From NCBI GenBank assembly GCA_948443805.1, contig CAOJUB010000011.1:1-58261 (forward strand): a stretch of DNA of 58,261 nt, read 5' to 3'. The stretch is from an uncultured Clostridia bacterium (GTDB lineage Bacteria; Bacillota; Clostridia; Oscillospirales; UBA644). The position numbers and the translations under genes were made by a program. Of the stretch, positions 44,005-57,133 are shown piece after piece. Each line of letters starts with the position of its first letter. Position 1 is the first letter of the stretch. Under the pieces are notes generated by a model. That model was not told where the DNA came from. It searched no databases and worked only from the letters and a program-made list of their open reading frames with translations.

Positions 44005-45075
44005 ATGGCAGTGCATCAAGCGGCGATTATCGGGCTCGGCGCAATTGGCGCCGGGGCTCATGCTCCGAATTATGCAAAAAATGAACGGGTGCAGGTTCGC
44101 TATCTGTGCGATCTGGTTCCGGAAAAATCCAAGTGGGCTAAAGAACATTTTGAGTTGAAAGACGCGGAGATTCTGACCGATTATACAGAGTTGCTCGGCA
44201 GGACGGACTACGATGTGGTTTCGGTTTGTCTTCCGAATTATCTTCATGCGCCGGTATCGGTGGATTTTCTTAACGCAGGGAAGGATGTCCTCTGTGAAAA
44301 ACCGATTTCGGTTTCAATGGAAAAGGCGCTGGAGATGAAGGAGGCGGCCGACCGGAACGGGAGAATTCTGAATATCGGTGTGGTAAACCGTTTTAACGGC
44401 TATGTCGATGAGCTGCGGAAAATCGTGGAGTCGGGAGAGCTTGGAGAAGTCTATCACATTTATTGTTCGTTCCGGGATTGTCGGCGGATTCCCGGCATGG
44501 GCGGATGGTTCACTGAGAAAAAGTATTCCGGCGGCGGTGTTCTGATCGATTGGGGCGTCCATTATATTGACTTGATTCTTTATATTCTCGGAAATCCGGA
44601 TATCTGCACGGTTTCCGGTAAGGCTTTCTGCAAGCTTGGTTCTCCTATGAAAGATTATGTGTTTGAAAATATGTGGGCCGGTCCGCCGAATTATGACGGC
44701 GTATATGATGTCGATGATTCCGTTACCGGTTTTGTCCGGACTTCCGGCCCCACTATTTCTCTGAACGGAGCCTGGGCGCAGAATATCGGCGAAAGCGAAT
44801 GTTTTATTGATTTTCTCGGAACGAAAGGCGGCGCACGGCTTCAATACGGAAAAGAATTTACCCTTACGCAGACAGCAGATGGAAAAGTTGTTCATCATAC
44901 GCCGGAAATCAGCGCGCCGGATATGTTTTATGCCGAAATTGATGCTTTTCTGGATTCGGTGGAAACCCGGGAGAAGAACCGTGCGAATATCGACCGGGTG
45001 CTGATTACCCAGAAAATTTTGAATGGGATTTATGATTCTTCCACAAAGAACCGAGAGATTGTTTTTCCCTCTTGA
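44005..45075 (+). CDS. Gfo/Idh/MocA family NAD(P)-dependent oxidoreductase
   Basis: 356 residues. The N-terminal Rossmann domain has IIGLGAIGAGAHAP, then VVSVCLPNYLHAP and the signature CEKPISVS with the conserved Lys. The C-terminal domain contains GGGVLIDWGVHYIDLILY with the Asp and His expected for catalysis. Such enzymes oxidise sugars or inositols; the substrate is not evident, and neighbours give no pathway. GGGAGG precedes the ATG. The last bases of the gene are the first copy of a 50-base tandem repeat that continues past the stop codon. Confidence 0.9.
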   Translation: MAVHQAAIIGLGAIGAGAHAPNYAKNERVQVRYLCDLVPEKSKWAKEHFELKDAEILTDYTELLGRTDYDVVSVCLPNYLHAPVSVDFLNAGKDVLCEKPISVSMEKALEMKEAADRNGRILNIGVVNRFNGYVDELRKIVESGELGEVYHIYCSFRDCRRIPGMGGWFTEKKYSGGGVLIDWGVHYIDLILYILGNPDICTVSGKAFCKLGSPMKDYVFENMWAGPPNYDGVYDVDDSVTGFVRTSGPTISLNGAWAQNIGESECFIDFLGTKGGARLQYGKEFTLTQTADGKVVHHTPEISAPDMFYAEIDAFLDSVETREKNRANIDRVLITQKILNGIYDSSTKNREIVFPS

Positions 45076-45180
45076 TTTATTGATACAACGGTTCTTCGAA
45101 CCGGGAGATTGTTTTTTCTTCTTGATTTATTGAAATAACGCTTCTTCGAACCGGGAGATTGTTTTTTTCTTTTTGATTTC
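45049..45180 (+). repeat. Tandem 50-base direct repeat, about 2.6 copies
   Basis: Copies begin at 45049, 45099 and 45149, each with AACCGRGAGATTGTTTTT and, in the first two, a following CTTGATTTATTGA and CTTCTTCG-like end; the last copy breaks off near 45180. The period is exactly 50 bases. The first copy contains the last codons and stop of the Gfo/Idh gene. The rest of the intergenic stretch to 45468 is AT-rich, with loose inverted repeats of AAGAAC/GTTCTT, and has no gene. Confidence 0.85.
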
Positions 45181-45468
45181 CCGGAAGAATGGTTTTAAAA
45201 ATCAGTAGATTGTTGTTTGTTACTGTTGTTGAAAAGGAACGTTCTGTTCTCCGCAGACATAGGATAATAAAGAACACGATTCTTTAAAGATCGCGTTCTT
45301 CAGAGAAAATGATTCGCATTTTTCTGATGCTAAACGAATGACAGACCTTTGCGGATCGTATTCTTTTTGTGCAAAAGAATAAGGATCGATATGGTTTGAA
45401 TTCTTTAGGAAGAAACGTTTATGTTTTTCTGATCCAATATGTATGGTATAATAGCGGGGGTGAAACGA

Positions 45469-45603
45469 ATGTTTTTTAATAACAACAGCAATATCTGGAT
45501 CATTATTATTGCCGTGGTGGTTATCTGGCTGCTTTTTGCCGATAATAACGATTGTGGCTGCGGATGCGGTAACAACAACGGCTGTGGCTGCGGCTGCAAC
45601 TGA
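45469..45603 (+). CDS. Small membrane protein with Cys-Gly tail
   Basis: 44 residues, too short for most gene finders. Asn-rich start (MFFNNNSN), one membrane span (IWIIIIAVVVIWLLFA, about 9-24), and a tail in which CGCGCG and GCGCGC flank three Asn residues: eight Cys in the last 16 or so residues. A GGGGGTG ribosome binding site lies six bases upstream and TATAAT at 45447-45452 could be a -10. Such one-span Cys-rich miniproteins occur widely in spore-forming Clostridia and are sometimes spore-associated; a role in metal binding or disulfide crosslinking of an outer layer is only a guess. A strong terminator follows. Confidence 0.7.
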   Translation: MFFNNNSNIWIIIIAVVVIWLLFADNNDCGCGCGNNNGCGCGCN

Positions 45604-45622
45604 TTGGAATTCTGAATAAAAC

Positions 45623-45658
45623 AAAAGAACGGACCGGAAATTTCCGGTCCGTTCTTTT
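45623..45658. terminator. Bidirectional terminator, long perfect palindrome
   Basis: 18 bases (45623-45640) are exactly complementary to 45641-45658, with A-run and T-run at the ends. It separates the Cys-rich miniprotein gene from the convergent M20 peptidase gene ending at 45660. Confidence 0.9.
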
Positions 45659-45659
45659 T

Positions 45660-47057
45660 TCAGCAAAAAAGACGGTAAATTGCCTCTGCGTAAATAGCGG
45701 TAAGATTTAGCAGTGCTTCGATACTGATGTATTCATCCGCGCCGTGAAGGCCGCCGCCTTGGGAAGGATCATTTTCATCGATCGGTCCGAAGGCAACGCC
45801 GCGGCTGTCAAACGCCTTGGCATAAGTTGCGCCCCGGCAGGAGAGAAAAGCAGCGGTCTTTCCTGTGATTTTTTGATAAATTTCCGCCAGCTTTTGCAGG
45901 CGCGGGTCTTCTTTTGGCATATAGGTGCTTTTGTCGGCTTTTTCAATGGTAAAGGCCGCGTTTTCTTTTTGCGCTGTTGCCGAAAGTTGATTGTATATCT
46001 GTTTTTCATCCGCCTGAATCGGAAGCCGGAGATCAATCGAGAGTTTCGGTATTTGCCCCCGGTTATAATCGGCCATCCCGAGATTCATCGTCATATCTCC
46101 GATAATGTCATCGGTGGAAAAGATTCCGAGTTTTTCTCCGCAGAAATCATCGACGAGATAACGTGCCGCGAATTCCAGATAATTGTTTTTGCTTCCGGTT
46201 TTTTCCAGTATGCGGTTCAGGAGCCGGATCATGGAAAAAATTGCGTTTTTTCCTGCCTGCGGCGTGGAACCGTGCGCAGAGATTCCGACTGTCTGTATAA
46301 AAACAGTGTTGCCGGTTATTGAAAATTCCGCATCGGACTGACTCAGAATTTTTTTAATTTCTCCGGTAAGCGCAGGGTCTGTTTTCAGCCGGCTGCGGCA
46401 AAGATCCGCCACACAGTTATACGCCCGTCCGCCGGACAGTTCTTCCAGCAAAACCGAGCCGGATTCCCGGATTTCCGGAAAGCTGAAATCGGCGAAAATA
46501 ACGCCGGCTTCAGCAAAAACAATCGGGAAACTGCTGTCCGGCGTCAGGCCGAAATCCGGAAGACCGTTTTCGTTTACGTACCGTTTTAAATCTTCCATTC
46601 CCCGTTCTTCATCTCCGCCGAGGATCAGCCGGATTTCCGCTTTCGGTTCGATTCCCAGGCATTTGAGCGCCTTTAAGGCATATAAAACGGCGATTGCCGG
46701 CCCTTTGTCGTCAAGAACGCCTCTGCCGTAAATCTTTCCGTCCCGGATCGATGCTTTCCAGGGATCCCGGCTCCAGCCGTCGCCGGCAGGAACAACGTCG
46801 AGGTGGCTGGCAATATATACTTTTTCCGGAGATTTCTGTTCTTTTCCGCCGTACAGAATCTCGGTGCAGTAGCCGTTATTTTTTGCGCGGAAACCCATCT
46901 CCGCCGCCATTTTTGCAGCAAGTTCCAGGGCTTTTCCGACAGGCTCTCCGTAAGGATACTGCGCTGTCGGGTTCTGAAAATAACTGGGAATCTGAACCAT
47001 CGCAATCACGTCTTTGACGATCCTGTCCCGGTGCAGTTCGGCAAAATCTTTAAACAT
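45660..47057 (-). CDS. M20 family dipeptidase (PepV/Sapep-like)
   Basis: 465 residues, cytoplasmic zinc dipeptidase. Metal-site motifs are ASHLDVVPAGDGW (His and Asp), GRGVLDDKGP (bridging Asp) and GGDEERGMEDL (catalytic Glu and ligand). A lid domain lies between about 185 and 385, and the final His is in GGGLHGADEYIS. It would release amino acids from dipeptides, possibly including D-residues from wall turnover. The start at 47057 shares one base with the stop of rhaB (TGATG), so translation is coupled to the sugar kinase, an unusual functional pairing. Confidence 0.9.
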   Translation of the reverse strand: MFKDFAELHRDRIVKDVIAMVQIPSYFQNPTAQYPYGEPVGKALELAAKMAAEMGFRAKNNGYCTEILYGGKEQKSPEKVYIASHLDVVPAGDGWSRDPWKASIRDGKIYGRGVLDDKGPAIAVLYALKALKCLGIEPKAEIRLILGGDEERGMEDLKRYVNENGLPDFGLTPDSSFPIVFAEAGVIFADFSFPEIRESGSVLLEELSGGRAYNCVADLCRSRLKTDPALTGEIKKILSQSDAEFSITGNTVFIQTVGISAHGSTPQAGKNAIFSMIRLLNRILEKTGSKNNYLEFAARYLVDDFCGEKLGIFSTDDIIGDMTMNLGMADYNRGQIPKLSIDLRLPIQADEKQIYNQLSATAQKENAAFTIEKADKSTYMPKEDPRLQKLAEIYQKITGKTAAFLSCRGATYAKAFDSRGVAFGPIDENDPSQGGGLHGADEYISIEALLNLTAIYAEAIYRLFC

Positions 47058-48526
47058 CAGAGTGCAAACCCCTTAATTTTTTTGAACTGCTGATATTTCT
47101 GATCCCAGCGTTCCGTGTCTTTCGGCGTATATTCCTCTACATCGAAGGGAAGTTTTCTTGCTTCTTCTACGTTTTCAATCTCGCCTGCTGCAATCAGCTG
47201 CATGATGATGTTTCCGAGAGCCGTTGCTTCTACCGGTCCCGCTGTGACCCGTTTTCCTGTTGCATTGGCGGTGAAGGCACAGAGATTTTTATCTTTTGTT
47301 CCGCCGCCGATAATATGAATGACGTCGATGGAATGGCCGAGGATATCTTCCAACGCTTCAATATAATAGCGGTAGGTAAGCGCTAGGCTTTCGAGAATAC
47401 AAAGAATGGTCTGTCCTTTGGTTTTCACCGGATTTTGTCCGGTTTTTTTCAAAAATTCCGAAATTCTTCCCGGCATATTGCCCGCCGGGGTAAAGAGGGG
47501 ACAGTTCGGGTCGATAAAAACATCGGCTGAGGTTTCGGTTTCCAGCATTTTGTCAATATCTTTGAAAGAAAGTTCGCAGCCTTCCCGAATCCATTGCCTC
47601 CGGGTTTCCTGAATCAGCCACAGGCCTGAAATGTTACGAAGAAAACAGAAGGTATCCTCCACGCCGCCTTCATTGGTGATTTCCGAACGGAAACTCTTTT
47701 CGTTAATAATGGGTTCGGTCGTTTCCGCTCCCAGAAGCGACCAGGTTCCGCTGGAAATATAGCAGGATTTTTCTCCTTTTTTGATCGGCGCCGCGACGAT
47801 GGCCGATGCGGTGTCGTGCGAGGCCACGGCAACGACTTTCGCTGGGTGGATTCCGATTTCATCGGTCAATTCTTTTTTCAAATGGCCGATGACGGTTCCC
47901 GGTTTGACAATTTTGGGAAACATTTCCGTATCAAAGCCGAGCTGCCGGAGTAGTTCAAAGTCGTAATCTCTTTTTTCCGCTTTCAAGAACTGTGAAGTCG
48001 AGGCTTCGGTATATTCCGCGACCTTTTCTCCGGTCAGAAAATAAGCGAAGAGGTCGGGAATAAACAGTAAGGTTTTCGCGCGGGAAAGAAGCGCCGGGCG
48101 CTGCTGCTTGAGGGCAAACAGTTGATACAGGGTGTTGATGGTCAGAAACTGTATTCCGGTTCTTTGGTAGATCGTTTCTTTGGCGCAGGCCTGAAAAAGG
48201 CTTTTTTCAATATTTTCAGTCCTTTTGTCCCGGTAATGCACCGGGTTTTCCAGCAGATAACCATCTTCATCGAGCAGACCGAAATCCACGCCCCAGGTAT
48301 CGATACCGATGGTGTCAATATCCGGATGACCGAGATTTACGCATTTTGTCAAACTCTGTTTAATTTCAAAAAACAGACGGAGGATATCCCAGTAAAAGGT
48401 TCCGCCGGCTTCCACGGGATCATTGGAAAAACGGTGAATTTCCTCTGTTTTCAGAACGCCGTTTTCATAGATTCCCAAAATGGCGCGGCCGCTGGACGCC
48501 CCGAAATCGAACGCGAGAGTTTTCAT
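47057..48526 (-). CDS. rhaB: Rhamnulokinase
   Basis: 489 residues, FGGY carbohydrate kinase. RhaB phosphorylates L-rhamnulose at C1. The N-terminal LAFDFGASSGRAILG and IDTWGVDFGLLD are characteristic of RhaB, as are SHDTASAIVAAP (catalytic Asp region), YISSGTWSLLG and the C-terminal IGGGTKDKNLCAFTANATG. Length is normal. It follows the tandem class II aldolase by 47 bases, matching a rhamnose (or fucose-like) breakdown route, but rhamnose isomerase and transporter are not in the window. The ribosome binding site is poor, so coupling to upstream translation is possible. Confidence 0.92.
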   Translation of the reverse strand: MKTLAFDFGASSGRAILGIYENGVLKTEEIHRFSNDPVEAGGTFYWDILRLFFEIKQSLTKCVNLGHPDIDTIGIDTWGVDFGLLDEDGYLLENPVHYRDKRTENIEKSLFQACAKETIYQRTGIQFLTINTLYQLFALKQQRPALLSRAKTLLFIPDLFAYFLTGEKVAEYTEASTSQFLKAEKRDYDFELLRQLGFDTEMFPKIVKPGTVIGHLKKELTDEIGIHPAKVVAVASHDTASAIVAAPIKKGEKSCYISSGTWSLLGAETTEPIINEKSFRSEITNEGGVEDTFCFLRNISGLWLIQETRRQWIREGCELSFKDIDKMLETETSADVFIDPNCPLFTPAGNMPGRISEFLKKTGQNPVKTKGQTILCILESLALTYRYYIEALEDILGHSIDVIHIIGGGTKDKNLCAFTANATGKRVTAGPVEATALGNIIMQLIAAGEIENVEEARKLPFDVEEYTPKDTERWDQKYQQFKKIKGFAL

Positions 48527-48573
48527 ATTTGTAAACCGTACCTTTCTTAATTATTCAGCAGGAGGCCAAACGC

Positions 48574-49839
48574 TTACCAGCCCTGGAAGTTTTCATTGAT
48601 TTCTTTTACTTCCGCGTCGGTAATGCTGGCGATATTTCCGAGTTTCAGTGCGGAAAGCACGCTGTTGGCGCTGTATTCGAGGACTTCCAGCCGGTCAAAG
48701 GCCTGAAGCGGTGTTTTTCCTGCGGTCAGCACGCATTCTTTTTCAACCAGAACAACCGGAACCGTTGTGCTGATGGTTTCGCTGATCGTTCCGTCGGCCA
48801 GCGCGGAGAAGGGCGCGGTTTTGATATCCCGGAGCATGATATAACTTTCCGGAATCAGCCTTGCGTTAAAGTTTTTGCCGGAGAGAACAAAGGCCATAAT
48901 GTGCGGCGGATATGCCAGATAAAGAGTGTTGAATTCGGGGTGTTTCTCATAGATTGAAAGCAGCATAGCGTAGGTCGGATCGGGGGTTTTTCCTTCTTCG
49001 ACCTGGCCGTCTTTGATTTTTACGATGTCTTCAGGCGTCAGGCTGTTTCGGTCTTTGCCTGCCGGGGTGATCAAAATGCTGCCGTCTTCCAGTTTTACTG
49101 CAAGAGTGCCGTCCAGGCATGAGGTGATATTCAGCGTATAGGAACGTTTGCAGAGATCGCAGATTTCCTGCCGCTGTTTCTGCTCTTCTTCGCTTTGGCT
49201 GCCGTTGACAAAGGTTTTGGCGGCCGGCGGTTCAATTTTATTTTTTGTCCGGTATTCGGCGAGGCTGCAGCCTGCGGTATTGGCGTTAATCTGCATTCTG
49301 GCGGCAAAATCCAGGCTTTCATAAAGAGAATAGGCTTCGTCAAGGTCTTTCCCTCCGACAACGGCGCCGTGAGAGTCCATCATGACGATATCGTATCCTT
49401 TTTTGAATTCTTCCGCAATAATATTTCCGAGTTTCAGGCTTCCCGGCAGCGAATAAGCGGAGGTGGAAATATTGCTGCACATCTTTTCGGTGTGAGAGGT
49501 CAGGTGCACGTTCGGTATGGTGCGGGTGACGGCAAATGCAACGATTGCCGGGGCGTGCGCGTGAACGATTGCTTTGATGTCCGGGCGCAGTTTATACACA
49601 TTGCTGTGAAACGGCAGTTCACAGGAGGGTTTGTGTTTTCCTTCCACCGTTCCATCGGGGCGGACTTTGATAATGTCGTCAAGAGTCAGGCGGCCTTTAT
49701 CAATAGCGCTCGGGGTGATATAAATGTTGCCCTCTTCGTCAATGGTCGAGATATTTCCGCCGGAGGTCGTTGTCAGACCGCGGTAGTAAACTCGGTTGAT
49801 GATTTCCAGTACTTTTTCAGCGGGGTTTGTGTTTTTCAT
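48574..49839 (-). CDS. Tandem class II aldolase/adducin protein, second domain degenerate
   Basis: 421 residues made of two related domains. Domain 1 (about 1-200) has TTSGGNIS for substrate phosphate, E74 in CELPFH, the zinc ligands H93 and H95 in VHAHAP, and H157 in DSHGAVV: a complete class II aldolase site of the rhamnulose- or fuculose-1-phosphate type. Domain 2 (about 225-421) keeps the fold (ILITPAGKDRNSLTPEDIV, FNTLYLAYPPHIMAFVLSG) but the ligand positions read Leu, Tyr and Glu, so it cannot bind zinc. A plausible aldolase step after RhaB, giving lactaldehyde and dihydroxyacetone phosphate. Single-domain relatives have 200-280 residues. Confidence 0.82.
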   Translation of the reverse strand: MKNTNPAEKVLEIINRVYYRGLTTTSGGNISTIDEEGNIYITPSAIDKGRLTLDDIIKVRPDGTVEGKHKPSCELPFHSNVYKLRPDIKAIVHAHAPAIVAFAVTRTIPNVHLTSHTEKMCSNISTSAYSLPGSLKLGNIIAEEFKKGYDIVMMDSHGAVVGGKDLDEAYSLYESLDFAARMQINANTAGCSLAEYRTKNKIEPPAAKTFVNGSQSEEEQKQRQEICDLCKRSYTLNITSCLDGTLAVKLEDGSILITPAGKDRNSLTPEDIVKIKDGQVEEGKTPDPTYAMLLSIYEKHPEFNTLYLAYPPHIMAFVLSGKNFNARLIPESYIMLRDIKTAPFSALADGTISETISTTVPVVLVEKECVLTAGKTPLQAFDRLEVLEYSANSVLSALKLGNIASITDAEVKEINENFQGW

Positions 49840-49881
49840 GATTGTTATACTCCAATCTGCCGGTAACCGGCAAATAAATTT

Positions 49882-52044
49882 TTATTTTTCATTTTCCTTT
49901 GCGCCCTTGATTGTCAGGGAAATTCTTTTTTTTGTCGTATCGACCGAAAGAACCCGGACTTTGACAATATCGCCGACCTTCAGAACTTCGGAGGGGTGTT
50001 TGATATACCGGTTGCAGATCTGCGAGATGTGAACCAGTCCGTCCTGATGCACGCCGATATCGACAAAAACGCCGAAATCAATTACGTTGCGTACCGTTCC
50101 GGTTAATAGGTCGCCTTCCTTGAGATCGTTGATGTCCAGGATGTCTGTGCGGAGAAGCGGCGGCGGCAGTGAATCCCGGATATCTCTGCCGGGTTTGGCC
50201 AGCTCCTTTAAAATATCATTGAGCGTAGGCAGGCCGATCTGACATTCTTCCGCGGCTTTTTGTCTGCCGTATAGGTCTGCCTTGGAGGGAAGCAGTTCCA
50301 GAGAATTGCCCTGAATATCTTTTTCGGTATAGCCGAAAAGAGAGAGCAGCTGTTTGGCATGATCATAGGATTCCGGATGAACAGCCGTATTGTCCAGCGG
50401 ATTTTTCGCATGGGGAATCCGAAGAAATCCGGCGCACTGTTCATAAGCTTTCGGCCCGAGTTTCGGTACTTTTTTTAATTGTGTCCGGCTGGTAAACGCG
50501 CCGTTTTCTTCCCGGTAGGCCACAATGTTTTTCGCTACCGTGGATGAAATTCCGGAAACATAGCCGAGCAGAGAAGGGGAGGCGGTATTCAGGTCTACGC
50601 CGACGGAGTTGACGCAGGATTCCACCACGCCGCGCAGCGATTCTTCCAGCCTTGCCTGCGGCATATCGTGCTGATACTGGCCGACGCCGATACTTTTCGG
50701 GTCTATTTTCACAAGTTCTGCCAACGGATCCTGCAATCTTCGGGCAATTGAAACGGCGGAACGTAGCGAAACATCGAAATCCGGAAATTCCGCAGCGCCC
50801 AGTTTGGATGCTGAGTAAACCGAGGCTCCGGCTTCGTTGACCACCATGTAGCTGACCGGCCGGGAAACTTCCCGGATGGTTTCCGCAATGAAAATTTCTG
50901 CTTCTTTGGAAGCGGTTCCGTTTCCGATGGAAATGCAGTCGACGGAAAAACGGTCGATATAGGCTTTTATTTTTTTTGCGGCCTCTTCTTTTTTATTCTG
51001 CGGCGGCGTTGGATAGATGACGTCGGTTGTCAAAACTTTTCCGTTTTCATCGACAACGCAGATTTTGCATCCCGTCCGATAGGCAGGGTCAACGGCCAGC
51101 ACGGTTTTTCCTTTGACCGGCGGCTGCATCAGCAGCGGTTTCAGGTTTTGCCCGAACATTTTAATGGCCTGTTCGTTGGCTTTTTCGGTCAGGTCGTTTC
51201 TCAGTTCCCGTTCCACCGAAGGGAATATCAGCCGTTGATAGGCGTCTTCGGCTGCGCTTCGGCACAGTTCCGTGAAAATACTGCCGTCTTTTACATATCG
51301 GCGGAAGAGGATCGCTTTTGCGTTTTCTTCGGGTATTTCGATCGCTGCTTTCAGAAATTCTTCCTTTTCCCCCCGGTTGACCGCCAGTATCCGGTGACTC
51401 GGAATTTTTGCAATCGGTTCGGCATAGTCGTAATACATCGTATAAACCGATTGCTTTTCCGGATCGCCCTTTGAAGAAACCGTTCCCTGACGGAAGGCAA
51501 GCGTTTTTAACTGTTTGCGGATTTCGGGATCGTCAGAAATGGTTTCTGCAATAATGTCGCAGGCGCCGGCCAGCGCTTCTTCGGCGGAAAGAACGCCTTT
51601 TTCTTCATTGATATAGGCTTCTGCTTGTTTTTCGGGCGTTCCTGAGCGGAGCTGCTGCGCCAGAATCATTTCGGAAAGCGGTTCTAGTCCTTTTTCTTTT
51701 GCGATCGAGGCTCTCGTTCTGCGCTTCGGCTTATAGGGCCGGTAAATATCTTCAATTTCTGCCAGTGTTTTGGCTTCGGCAAGCGCCGTTTCAATTTCCG
51801 GCGTCATTTTTTCCTGTTCGGTAATGCTGGCGGAGACTTCCTGTTTTCTTTTTTCAAGATTCCGCAGATATTGCAGACGGTCGTAGATTTCCCTCAGAAC
51901 CTGATCGTCGCAGGAACCGGTCATTTCTTTGCGGTACCGTGCGATAAAAGGGATCGTGTTGTCGGCGTCGATCAGCGCAACGATATTTTCCGCGTGATTT
52001 TGCCTGATTTTAAATTCCTCGCAAAGGGTTTTTATGATGTCCAT
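49882..52044 (-). CDS. tex: Tex family RNA-binding transcription accessory protein
   Basis: 720 residues. Domain order typical of Tex: N-terminal helical region, YqgF-like RNase H fold domain (about 320-450, VLAVDPAYRTGCKICVVDENG), helix-hairpin-helix repeats (about 480-560, VGVDLNTASPSLL, IVAYREENGAF) and a C-terminal S1 domain (about 640-710, GDLLTGTVRNVIDFGVFVDIG). Tex binds nucleic acid and influences transcription and stress responses; its precise role is unsettled. AGAA/GGAG precedes the ATG at 52044. The aldolase gene starts 42 bases after its stop with no terminator between, so tex may lead the rhamnose transcript. Confidence 0.95.
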   Translation of the reverse strand: MDIIKTLCEEFKIRQNHAENIVALIDADNTIPFIARYRKEMTGSCDDQVLREIYDRLQYLRNLEKRKQEVSASITEQEKMTPEIETALAEAKTLAEIEDIYRPYKPKRRTRASIAKEKGLEPLSEMILAQQLRSGTPEKQAEAYINEEKGVLSAEEALAGACDIIAETISDDPEIRKQLKTLAFRQGTVSSKGDPEKQSVYTMYYDYAEPIAKIPSHRILAVNRGEKEEFLKAAIEIPEENAKAILFRRYVKDGSIFTELCRSAAEDAYQRLIFPSVERELRNDLTEKANEQAIKMFGQNLKPLLMQPPVKGKTVLAVDPAYRTGCKICVVDENGKVLTTDVIYPTPPQNKKEEAAKKIKAYIDRFSVDCISIGNGTASKEAEIFIAETIREVSRPVSYMVVNEAGASVYSASKLGAAEFPDFDVSLRSAVSIARRLQDPLAELVKIDPKSIGVGQYQHDMPQARLEESLRGVVESCVNSVGVDLNTASPSLLGYVSGISSTVAKNIVAYREENGAFTSRTQLKKVPKLGPKAYEQCAGFLRIPHAKNPLDNTAVHPESYDHAKQLLSLFGYTEKDIQGNSLELLPSKADLYGRQKAAEECQIGLPTLNDILKELAKPGRDIRDSLPPPLLRTDILDINDLKEGDLLTGTVRNVIDFGVFVDIGVHQDGLVHISQICNRYIKHPSEVLKVGDIVKVRVLSVDTTKKRISLTIKGAKENEK

Positions 52045-52092
52045 ATCAATTCTCCGTTTTACAGCTTCTGAAAAATTATTTCATTTCGCAGA

Positions 52093-52120
52093 TTAAAGCC
52101 TGCAATAAAACAGGCTTTAA
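52093..52120 (-). terminator. Hairpin between the glycosyltransferase and tex
   Basis: 10-bp stem TTAAAGCCTG/CAGGCTTTAA (52093-52102 with 52111-52120) with an eight-base loop. On the minus strand no T-run follows, so termination is doubtful; it may act as a processing or attenuation hairpin. Confidence 0.4.
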
Positions 52121-52137
52121 CCAAAATCGTTTTCGTG

Positions 52138-53394
52138 TTATTTCTTTTGGGAAAGTTCGTCGATCGAAATCGCCACATCGTGTTTGACTGGTTTCCATTC
52201 TACCTTTTTAAATGCGGCGGCAACGGCAATCGGCACATACGTGAACATGAAAAGGGGGAAGGTGAATACCGAAAGGATTTTTTTCGGCGCGGAACAGTGA
52301 ATCTGGTTCCATTCTGTAATCGTTGTAATCAGCCCGACAAGGAAGACCGTCAGGTATCCGTTCCCGATCAGTTTCAGGATAGTCAGAATCAGTGAGAGCA
52401 GATTCCCGCCGGTAGCCAGCGTTACAATCAGCCCTGCGGCATTGACCAAAATGGCGATAAAGGTCAGAATAATGGCCGGGAGAATAATCATTGACATATC
52501 GAAAAAGGTGAAACAGCGCGGGGAAAAAAGCCCACGAAGCATTTTGGTTCCGAATTTCCGGAACACCTGATAATATCCTCTGGTCCAGCGGACTCTCTGA
52601 TGCCAGGAAGCCATGAAAGTCTCCGGCTGCTCGTCATAGAAAACGGCGCTGCCGCAGTAACCGATGGTTTCGCCTTTGATAATGCTGTCAATAACGAATT
52701 CGATATCTTCTGTCAGAAGATGGAACGGCCAGCCGCCGTTTTCTTTGATCAGACTGCTGCTGACTACAAAGCCCGTTCCTGCAATCGCCGCGCTGGTTCC
52801 GAGCAGCATTCTTGGATAATTCAGATATTTCGCGTCCCTCAGGAACCAGAGGGAGTAGCCTGCCGAAATCCAGTTCGCGCCGTAATTCTTAGAGTTTCTG
52901 TAGCTGGTTATGATACGATATCCGTGGCCGAAAACCTTGTTCATTTCAGTGATATAGTTCGGCTCCAGCAGGTTATCCGCGTCAAAGACGAAATATCCGT
53001 CATAGCTTTCAATGCCATAGTCTTTTTCAATATTCTGGAACAAAAAATTCAGCGCATAACCTTTGCCGCGTTCTTCCCGGTTGAACCGTTCATAGACGAT
53101 CGCCCCCGCGTTTCTCGCCGTTTCGGCGGTCTTGTCGGTACAGTTATCGGCAACGATAATGATATCAATCAGTTCCGAAGGGTAATCCTGCCGTTTAATG
53201 CTGTCGATCAGGTTTCCGATGACCTTTTCTTCATTCAGCGCAGAAACAAGAACCGCATACCGGTGATTTTTAACTGCTTCCAGTTTTTTTTGCTTTTTCA
53301 GCAGAACAATCGGAATATAGACAAACTGGTAGGCATAACAAAAAATAAAAAGTACGGAAATCGCTGTATTCAGAATCGGCCAGATCATGTCCAT
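52138..53394 (-). CDS. Membrane glycosyltransferase family 2 (cellulose-synthase-like)
   Basis: 418 residues. One membrane span at the N-terminus (about 8-32), the GT-A catalytic domain with VSALNEEKVIG, DNCTDKTAE, the DAD motif at 138-140, LLTEDIEF (catalytic base Asp) and QRVRWTRG (QxxRW motif), then three or four membrane spans (about 300-395). The D, DxD, D, QxxRW set marks processive beta-glycosyltransferases that make and export polysaccharides such as cellulose, hyaluronan or poly-N-acetylglucosamine. No partner genes are present, so the polymer is unknown. AGGGGA precedes the ATG, and a consensus promoter lies at 53433. Confidence 0.9.
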   Translation of the reverse strand: MDMIWPILNTAISVLFIFCYAYQFVYIPIVLLKKQKKLEAVKNHRYAVLVSALNEEKVIGNLIDSIKRQDYPSELIDIIIVADNCTDKTAETARNAGAIVYERFNREERGKGYALNFLFQNIEKDYGIESYDGYFVFDADNLLEPNYITEMNKVFGHGYRIITSYRNSKNYGANWISAGYSLWFLRDAKYLNYPRMLLGTSAAIAGTGFVVSSSLIKENGGWPFHLLTEDIEFVIDSIIKGETIGYCGSAVFYDEQPETFMASWHQRVRWTRGYYQVFRKFGTKMLRGLFSPRCFTFFDMSMIILPAIILTFIAILVNAAGLIVTLATGGNLLSLILTILKLIGNGYLTVFLVGLITTITEWNQIHCSAPKKILSVFTFPLFMFTYVPIAVAAAFKKVEWKPVKHDVAISIDELSQKK

Positions 53395-54346: not shown

Positions 54347-54460
54347 ATGTCGGTAAAAAGAATATTAAAGGCAATTTCAGTCACGTTGCTTGTGGCACTG
54401 ACAGTACAGCTGCTTCCGCCGTCAGGTGGGAACCACTTCCACGCCGTATTACTATGTTAA
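54347..54460 (+). pseudogene. Signal-peptide start of an Rhs-type protein, cut off out of frame
   Basis: GGGAGG seven bases upstream of the ATG at 54347 starts MSVKRILKAISVTLLVALTV followed by QLLP, a clean Sec signal peptide. At about 54412 the sequence enters the Rhs core repeat (GCTTCCGCCGTCAGG) but in the wrong frame, so the peptide ends after 37 residues with PSGGNHFHAVLLC. The core in its proper frame continues as the next feature. I infer that the promoter and start of a full-length wall-associated YD-repeat gene were joined to an internal core segment by deletion or recombination, without preserving frame. Confidence 0.75.
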
Positions 54461-54718
54461 GAATCTGCAAGGGGATATTGTAGCGATAGCGCGGGGCGGA
54501 GACGGCGCGATTCTGGCGCGGTATGCCTATGACGCCTGGGGCAATATCCTGTCTATTACTGACAATGCAGGACACGATATTTCCAACAAACCGAACGAGA
54601 TTGCGAATATCAATCCCTTGCGGTACCGGGGTTATTATTACGATTCCGAAACGGGACTGTATTACCTGAAATCCCGTTTCTATGACCCGGCGACCGGTCG
54701 CTTTGTGAATGCGGATTC
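54412..54718 (+). repeat. Rhs core end, repeat copy 1
   Basis: 307 bases that recur at 56263-56569 with about five differences, all in a 17-base stretch near the 3' end, and in part at 58145-58261. The segment encodes the conserved end of the Rhs core just before the variable tip. Confidence 0.92.
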
Positions 54719-55298
54719 GGTTGTAACAACGTCCAGTTTGTTAGGCACGAATTTGTATACATATTGTTTTAATAATCCGATTCGTTATACCGATTCTTCG
54801 GGGAATCTTCCGACTCCGGATCAGTGGCTGGGTCTTGGCAGAAACAGTAAACTCGGTTTGCAAATGAATGGGAATGTTTATAATAATTTAAAAGATCAAA
54901 GTAATATTACTTTTAAAGCTAATAGTTTGCCTACAACCGGAGAGCCAGGGTCAAATCAGACTCTTCCTAATCCTGATGGTTCAATCAAGCAAAAACGATG
55001 GTATGGTCCAGATGGTAATGCGGAAAGAGATCGTGATTACAACCATTCAGGCGATCTCCCGTTTCCTCATGACCATGAGTGGAATGATGGAGTAAGAGGT
55101 AAAGATCATGTACCTCCGTCTCCGGAATATGAGTTTAATAGTGATCCTTTAGTTGGTGCAGGCATAGTTGTTGTATGTGTTATAGGTATAGGCATTGTTT
55201 TGGCCGACGATGTTACCGGGGTAGGGGTTGCTAATGATTTTCTTTTAGGCCCACTTGGTGCAGGTGTAGGAGAAGGTGTTATTTTAATATTTGGATAA
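54426..55298 (+). CDS. Rhs core end with variable tip A (candidate toxin)
   Basis: Frame of 290 codons from a GTG at 54426 that has no proper ribosome binding site. Residues 1-97 are the Rhs core end, with the hallmark pattern NPLRYRGYYYDSETGLYYL and SRFYDPATGRFVNADS. The tip (about 98-290) is unique: SIKQKRWYGPDGNAERDRDY and HDHEWNDGVRGKDH give a Asp/His-rich centre of the kind seen in nuclease-like tips, followed by a Gly-rich hydrophobic end (GIVVVCVIGIGIVL, GPLGAGVGEGVILIFG). Toxic activity is inferred from architecture and the downstream genes. As placed it lacks secretion signal and most of the core, so it is probably a silent, orphan module. Codon and base composition shift to AT-rich in the tip. 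Confidence 0.75.
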   Translation: MGTTSTPYYYVKNLQGDIVAIARGGDGAILARYAYDAWGNILSITDNAGHDISNKPNEIANINPLRYRGYYYDSETGLYYLKSRFYDPATGRFVNADSVVTTSSLLGTNLYTYCFNNPIRYTDSSGNLPTPDQWLGLGRNSKLGLQMNGNVYNNLKDQSNITFKANSLPTTGEPGSNQTLPNPDGSIKQKRWYGPDGNAERDRDYNHSGDLPFPHDHEWNDGVRGKDHVPPSPEYEFNSDPLVGAGIVVVCVIGIGIVLADDVTGVGVANDFLLGPLGAGVGEGVILIFG

Positions 55299-56262: not shown

Positions 56263-56569
56263 GCTTCCGCCGTCAGGTGGGAACCACTTCCACGCCGTAT
56301 TACTATGTTAAGAATCTGCAAGGGGATATTGTAGCGATAGCGCGGGGCGGAGACGGCGCGATTCTGGCGCGGTATGCCTATGACGCCTGGGGCAATATCC
56401 TGTCTATTACTGACAATGCAGGACACGATATTTCCAACAAACCGAACGAGATTGCGAATATCAATCCCTTGCGGTACCGGGGTTATTATTACGATTCCGA
56501 AACGGGACTGTATTACCTGAAATCCCGCTTTTACGACCCCACGACCGGTCGCTTTGTGAATGCGGATTC
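56263..56569 (+). repeat. Rhs core end, repeat copy 2
   Basis: 307-base near-identical copy of 54412-54718. Core-like sequence begins slightly earlier, at about 56250 (GGTTCGCCGATTGG), which also matches the start seen in copy 3 at about 58132. The two copies are 1,851 bases apart in direct orientation. Confidence 0.92.
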
Positions 56570-57133
56570 TCAATTAACTGCTTCGCTTGGAATATTAGGT
56601 TGTAATCTGTTTACATATTGTCTTAATAATCCAGTGAACAAAATTGATTTTACTGGTAATAAACCTGGAGATTTGTTTAATACAATTGATGAAGCTGCAA
56701 TAGATGCTGCTGAATATTTAGGGCAGTTAACATGGGAAAATACATGGGAGTATTCCACTGCTATTTATTCAGTATCAACAACTATAAAAACTTATGAAAC
56801 AGCAATTAAAATACATAAGTTTTTATGGTGGTCTTGGACCTCGAAATCCAAGAAGACTATAAAAACAAAAAAAATCCAGTATACTTACAAAACGATAATA
56901 ACAGATAAAAAGAACAATTCTGTAGATGTTCCCAGTGCCCCATTATTTAAAAAACGGGTTGCGGCAGTTCATACACATCCTATGGGAAGTTGGTTAGGTA
57001 TCACAAAGTTTTCTATTCTTTATATGTCCATGGCCCAAATGGGAAATTAAGGAAATATGATCCTATGACTGGTGAAGATTCACTTGTGTGTTCAGATCTT
57101 CCTATATCTCCCAAAACACCATGGTTAGATTAA
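56277..57133 (+). pseudogene. Rhs core end with tip B (DUF4329/JAB-like), frameshifted
   Basis: From a GTG at 56277, again without a ribosome binding site. Residues 1-97 are the core end; the tip begins FNTIDEAAIDAAEYLGQLTW, then a strand-rich part and VAAVHTHPMGSW. The early Ala-rich helix and the HTHP motif fit DUF4329-type domains, related to JAB metalloproteases. The frame stops at 57050, but the next frame continues with SLYVHGPNGKLRKYDP and ends PKTPWLD at 57133, which reads as the missing end of the same domain. A frame change near 57000-57020, probably with loss of some residues, has broken the gene. Confidence 0.7.

Follow-up and report, generated by a model that had tools for sequence, protein, structure and literature searches.

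A tandem class II aldolase family with a metal-less second domain that may complete the active site of the first

In a window of 58,261 nucleotides, the whole stretch of DNA that was analysed, we identified a gene for a 421-aa protein (48574..49839, minus strand, ATG start, TAA stop) that carries a class II aldolase domain, PF00596, in both halves. The plus-strand frame over these positions is interrupted by stops, and the coding strand is the minus strand. Across the family of this protein, conservation falls in opposite regions of the two domains. We propose, with a probability of roughly 60%, that it is a fused enzyme in which a catalytic first domain (D1) would be completed by a trans-acting pseudoenzyme second domain (D2) at a split, interfacial active site, with a 6-deoxy-ketohexose 1-phosphate as the presumed substrate. 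In the literature that we searched, which was mostly outside subscription journals, we found no description of a class II aldolase tandem in which one half is without a metal site.

D1 spans residues about 6-190 (49270..49824, minus strand, as are all features of the protein below) and matches PF00596 at an E-value of 3.4e-43. It carries Glu74 (49618..49620), the equivalent of the general base Glu73 of FucA, the first two zinc ligands in His93-Ala94-His95 (49555..49563), and the third zinc ligand His157 (49369..49371). D2 spans residues about 217-418 (48586..49191) and matches PF00596 at 7.5e-20, while an adh_short match was absent from the second domain at E-values up to 1. At the corresponding places, D2 has Leu308-Ala309-Tyr310 (48910..48918) for the His-x-His motif and Glu368 (48736..48738) for the last zinc His. 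An earlier note on this DNA had named these residues of both domains, and did so correctly; Thr289 (48973..48975), which replaces the catalytic Glu in D2, is an addition to its list. The whole protein scored 215.9 bits against PF00596, residues 1-209 alone 148.1 bits and residues 210-421 alone 72.0 bits (gathering cut-off 22.2), and 45 of 202 aligned residues (22%) were identical between D1 and D2. The structure prediction that the earlier note had suggested as a check was carried out for the single chain with AlphaFold2, and the whole protein was modelled at a pLDDT of 90.4 and a pTM of 0.89. The linker, residues about 191-216 (49192..49269), was the lowest-confidence stretch of the model, with a pLDDT of 59 for block 191-200 and 76 for block 201-210. 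Modelled by itself, D2 reached a pLDDT of 89.4 and matched E. coli FucA (1dzz) in full length, with a Z score of 25.8 and an rmsd of 2.1 A over 200 residues, covering FucA residues 1-208. D2 is thus homologous to class II aldolases, as had been assumed, and both sequence and predicted fold support the suggestion that this half is a pseudoenzyme.

We then asked how widely the tandem occurs. From a scan with one genome per species, the best 80 of at least 578 confirmed candidate loci were taken, and the tandem was present at each of these 80, almost full-length at 79 and interrupted at one. Their titles named Clostridia, Christensenella, Paenibacillus, Cohnella, Treponema, another Spirochaetota bacterium and a Bacteroidetes MAG, and more distant members, about 37% identical, were found on two plasmids of Persicobacter (Bacteroidota). 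The family therefore occurs in at least three phyla, Bacillota, Spirochaetota and Bacteroidota. The interrupted locus is the Bacteroidetes MAG copy (L106, 4932-6284), with an in-frame stop just after 6035 that may be a sequencing error. In the order to which the window belongs, 21 of 394 genomes, an even draw from a larger group, carried the tandem (a fragment at a contig end in G023 is not counted among the 21), and so did 9 of 398 genomes of a wider phylum sample, the window's own genome included (rows under an E-value of 1e-100).

At 101 of 102 tandem loci, which include a few places fetched twice and the window's own locus, the open frame was almost full-length, the exception being L106. 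The 101 loci, less identical copies and the window copy and with the window protein (P0001) added, gave 96 non-identical members, at least three of which are truncated (L035, L077 and L125). In the 121 member pairs that were at least 75% identical, mean identity was 85.3% for D1 and 83.5% for D2. These close pairs were used in place of dN/dS over all pairs, which was dropped since synonymous distances were unreliable in some pairs. The open frames together with the near-equal divergence of D1 and D2 in close pairs argue that the tandem is neither a chance product nor a dying gene.

The pairing itself looks old. In a tree of 68 domains, a branch with support of 100/100 and a stem of 1.74 set all 19 D2 rows to one side, and a second branch (81/91, stem 0.61) did so for all 19 D1 rows, a pattern that suggests an old pairing and fast early change in D2. 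The archaeal tandem FucA of Halomarina (plasmid NZ_CP119993, L173 4001-5263) is of similar length and is also a tandem class II aldolase, but both of its metal-site motifs are intact, unlike D2. Its own two domains are sisters (100/99), indicating an independent duplication.

Next, we compared the metal sites of the two domains across the 96 members. The set of one Glu and three His residues that acts in cis was complete in D1 of all 96 (Glu74, His93, His95 and His157 each 96/96) and complete in D2 of none. The D2 positions of the catalytic Glu (289), the first His (308) and the last His (368) had that residue in 0/96 each, and the middle His (310) was present in 79/96; position 368 was most commonly Asp (62), followed by Glu (11), Gln (11) and Asn (8). 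The absence of the Glu and two of the His residues from D2 throughout the 96 indicates that the metal site was disrupted at an early stage of the family's history. Among ten further members, eight had the common Ser-Ile-His-Asp set at the D2 site; of the other two, the Persicobacter protein L171 retains the last His instead and L172 retains none. The earlier claim that the second domain lost all zinc ligands thus holds for the window protein, which with Tyr310 is among the 17 of 96 members without this last metal-site remnant, but does not extend to the family, where the middle His is mostly kept.

We further studied what D2 has kept, by comparing D1 and D2 column entropies in 196 windows of seven aligned positions. 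The most D2-biased of these was residues 329-335 (IPESYIM, 48835..48855) at 1.88 bits, and the second non-overlapping one was residues 409-415 in the C-terminal helix (48595..48615) at 1.34 bits; the latter was compared with D1 residues 200-206, where the D1 alignment is unsure. Both remained the two top D2 windows after thinning to 46 or 19 representatives. The D1-biased windows were, in order, 60-67, 131-141, 70-76 (Ser-x-Glu), 152-158 (last His), 93-99 (His-x-His) and 4-10; four of these six lie at cis-site segments, while 60-67, the top one, and 4-10 contain no known site residue. The IPESY sequence was exact in 91/96 members, with Glu331 and Tyr333 both at 96/96, and in the ten further members Glu331 was found in 10/10 and Tyr333 in 9/10, with Trp in the remaining one. 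Over seven hand-picked loop columns, mean entropy was 2.20 bits in D1 versus 0.37 bits in D2. The loop columns, the cis columns and the 14 pocket positions considered below were picked by hand; the places found by the sliding-window scan were not.

Enzymes of the class II aldolase fold are tetramers with active sites between subunits, and in AraD, Asp120 acts across the subunit interface. In the available part of PMC6202814, Tyr113' of FucA and Glu171' of RhaD are described as coming from the adjacent monomer, and a docking study, in the portion accessible to us (PMC11274987), lists Tyr113', Met114', Val202' and Phe206' of FucA and Glu153' of T. maritima RhaD as residues that the other chain contributes to the binding site. 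The D2-biased windows lie in the segment of Tyr113'/Glu171' and in the C-terminal helix. Such a reciprocal pattern is expected of two domains that form opposite sides of a common type of interface. The earlier suggestion that D2 is a built-in subunit partner is therefore the favoured one, in a sharper form, in which the conservation biased to D2 would mark segments that serve the neighbouring site in FucA and RhaD.

The assignment of single residues depends on the alignment. Glu331 fell on RhaD Glu171, which is kept in 14/14 aligned RhaD sequences, in both alignments of D2 and RhaD alone and in none of the five that included D1, where Glu171 fell on column 338 in four and on a gap in one; in hhalign, only the C-terminal 75 columns of D2 and RhaD were aligned. 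Tyr333 fell on AraD Asp120 in 3/3 alignments, and HMMER paired it with a Tyr in YgbL (6vop and 6voq). FucA Tyr113 fell on column 329 in one alignment and on 334 in two, and D1 has no conserved Tyr at this place in 3/3 alignments. An equivalence of Tyr333 with FucA Tyr113' was accordingly dropped, and the claim is limited to the segment. We also dropped the idea that D1 has lost a C-terminal in-trans Phe, since the domain cut fell just before Phe210 of the linker, which is nearly invariant across family members.

Based on these patterns, we propose that an old duplication was followed by a division of the active-site work between the two halves. D1 would hold the zinc and the sugar phosphate and carry the base Glu74, while D2 would keep the IPESY loop at 329-335, and perhaps the C-terminal helix, reaching into the site of its neighbour. 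D2 might in this way provide the acid, a part played by Tyr113' in FucA and by Glu171' in RhaD. A pair of chains could then form a pseudo-tetramer of the order D1-D2-D1-D2, with two live sites where D1 faces D2 and two silent ones.

Conservation of the D2 loop could, however, be structural. If D2 only stood in for the homotetramer neighbour as a scaffold, the loop would be kept for packing and D2 would supply no chemistry. This would agree with the retained fold and full-length FucA match of D2, with the confident whole-chain model, and with a metal site that was dispensable in all 96 members. Adducin works in actin binding in animals, and we know of no case in which its aldolase domain is fused to, or serves, a live aldolase domain. 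As far as the accessible text of PMC12599920 goes, this domain (PDB 8iah/8iai) offers a precedent, namely a non-catalytic class II aldolase fold with the tetramer kept. Packing, on the other hand, poorly explains why the acid-capable Glu331 and Tyr333 are invariant among the 96 members while the D1 segment is mostly variable, and we regard a scaffold without chemistry as unlikely.

The old D2 pocket could also have been turned to binding. The earlier note had offered a regulatory ligand sensor as its other possibility. In such a sensor, as we picture it, the former site would tune D1 by binding phosphate or a sugar phosphate that is not turned over. The pocket is indeed conserved in a new form across the 96 members (S287 in 91, R288 in 86, H310 in 79, N367 in 94, D263 in 96 and R264 in 95), and the majority have 11 to 14 of the 14 pocket consensus residues. 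However, the window protein has only 5 of the 14, the fewest of the 96, yet its IPESY loop is intact, which speaks against a sensor in this protein, though less so in the rest of the family; we consider this role improbable. Still less credit is given to a new catalytic role of D2's own, for example through the Ser-Ile-His-Asp set, that is decaying in some lineages including the window's. The frequencies of His310 (79/96) and Asp368 (62/96) would fit it, as would the finding that close pairs diverge about as slowly in D2 as in D1; against this, a second metal ligand set was not seen in D2 and His310 is missing in 17/96.

We next compared the tandem with known single-domain and fused aldolases. 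D1 resembles FucA (PDB 1fua/4fua) in its fold, zinc triad, catalytic Glu and phosphate-site Asn/Ser, but FucA is a single domain that forms a homotetramer with four equal sites, whereas the tandem consists of two fused domains. RhaD is likewise a single domain (274 aa in E. coli), unlike the tandem; D1 resembles it at a Trp/Tyr-x-x-Pro-Gly segment and in the tree it was placed next to E. coli RhaD, a weakly supported position (87/36) in which the RhaD branch is very long. Among NCBIfam profiles, 33 models matched and none of the best 25 of these reached its cut-off, including the L-fuculose-phosphate aldolase models NF005302 (125.6 versus 264 bits) and TIGR01086 (112.1 versus 400.25 bits) and the RhaD model NF002963 (71.4 versus 170 bits). 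RhaE/RhaEW (YuxG) is a rhamnulose aldolase fused to a dehydrogenase, as given in the part of PMC3870299 that was available. On that description, RhaEW is like the tandem in being a two-domain, non-canonical replacement of RhaD that sometimes occurs beside it, but its second domain is a short-chain dehydrogenase and not an aldolase copy.

To place the protein in metabolism, we examined the genes around it. The next gene (47057..48526, minus strand) encodes an FGGY sugar kinase that is rhamnulokinase-like (TIGR02627, 477.7 bits, under the cut-off of 527.95) and begins 47 bases after the aldolase stop. The third gene (45660..47057, minus strand) encodes a Sapep-type dipeptidase (TIGR01887, 385.8 bits, over the cut-off of 207.95) whose frame overlaps that of the kinase by one base, and a terminator-like hairpin follows it at 45658-45623. 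Upstream of the tandem, a gene that we take to be Tex-like (49882-52044, minus strand) ends 42 bases away on the same strand. The sole promoter-like site found in 45000-52200 lies on the opposite strand, and the Tex-like transcript may thus read through into the aldolase. Elsewhere in the window, two ORFs (54426-55298 and 56277-57050, both plus strand) share a near-identical repeat core, about 100 aa long, and differ in their C-terminal tips; we presume the core to be of RHS type and the arrangement to resemble displaced polymorphic-toxin tips.

In the window's own genome we identified FucI, at 1013.9 bits versus a curated cut-off of 775; a RhaA match was absent from this genome, as was any PF00596 gene other than the tandem. 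Across the order, with FucI counted as PF02952 at E < 1e-38 (a threshold that we set), FucI was present in 15/21 tandem genomes versus 101/373 others (Fisher p 5e-5), RhaA in 15/21 versus 146/373 (p 0.004), and either of the two in 19/21 versus 178/373 (p 8e-5), all three p values being computed with shared ancestry ignored. Neither isomerase was found in two of the 21, G126 and G243. In four of the 21 (G000, G002, G100 and G209, the window's genome included) the tandem was the only PF00596 gene found.

Several relatives place the tandem in a rhamnose cluster. In four of the 21 genomes (G332, G092, G142 and G061) the tandem and RhaA share a strand and are no more than 100 bases apart, in G326 the distance is within 1.6 kb, and in all five a kinase belongs to the same cluster; in Treponema (L066) the gene order is RhaM-tandem-RhaA-RhaB. 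In the group f113/g302, all 7 sampled genomes had RhaA on the strand of the tandem at a distance of about 12.6 kb, an arrangement that agrees with the C. saccharolyticus cluster of a rhamnose isomerase and a rhamnulose-1-P aldolase, as far as it is described in the part of PMC4187192 available to us. Among the best 80 of the at least 578 loci, many of them with short flanks, nearby genes included RhaA at 3, FucI at 1, an FGGY-type kinase at 7, a FucO-like gene at 5 and RhaM at 2, and most loci were without the rha/fuc neighbours sought. When Pfam domains were counted with a simple gene caller in 74 upstream and 74 downstream genes of 79 loci, no common partner gene emerged, the commonest being Aldolase_II (7/74 downstream) and adh_short (5/74 upstream). 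Gene neighbourhood was therefore dropped as a general marker of the family.

Taken together, the kinase, the co-occurrence and clusters with FucI and RhaA, and the genomes with a lone PF00596 gene make cleavage of fuculose/rhamnulose-1-phosphate the best guess. The substrate, a 6-deoxy-ketohexose 1-phosphate that would be cleaved to DHAP and L-lactaldehyde, is likely L-fuculose-1-phosphate here and L-rhamnulose-1-phosphate in relatives with an adjacent RhaA, where the same reaction as that of RhaD is expected.

Whether the substrate is a different one, for example 5-deoxyribulose-1-phosphate or a 3-oxo-tetronate 4-phosphate, is a question separate from the role of D2. The best NCBIfam profile was a 3-oxo-tetronate 4-phosphate decarboxylase (147.2 bits versus a cut-off of 250), YgbL and the aldolase 6btd/6btg are among the closest solved structures, and the scarcity of rha/fuc neighbours at most of the best 80 loci points the same way. 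Moreover, a RhaE/RhaEW-type aldolase is present as well in some of the tandem genomes, where the role of the tandem may be a different one or may overlap. In G061, kinase, tandem, RhaA and, directly after it, a RhaEW-like gene of 662 aa (L177, 7833-9818) share one strand, and this cluster contains two class II aldolases. At two other loci (L088 6292-7317 and L174 8445-9494), a class II aldolase of 342-349 aa, a relative of the RhaEW aldolase part, lies directly downstream of the tandem. Weighed against the RhaA and kinase clusters, the isomerase co-occurrence and the four genomes in which the tandem was the only PF00596 gene found, a different substrate appears rather unlikely, and a 6-deoxy-ketohexose 1-phosphate remains our preferred assignment.

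A further-reaching version of the split-site proposal is that the protein is an obligately asymmetric enzyme, with complementary half-sites derived from one duplication-fusion, in which the loop with both Glu and Tyr may serve L-rhamnulose-1-P and L-fuculose-1-P alike. Of the 21 genomes in the order that carry the tandem, 11 had both isomerases, and in one of these (G100, 91% complete) no class II aldolase gene other than the tandem was found. Judged from such sequence patterns, this version is possible, and we put it forward tentatively.

Other enzyme families provide known cases of a pseudoenzyme partner completing an active site. The tandem aldolase may offer a clean test case for the division of a shared active site after duplication, with its cis and trans halves apparently parted between D1 and D2. 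For genomes in which no other class II aldolase gene was found, it also provides a candidate fucose/rhamnose aldolase.
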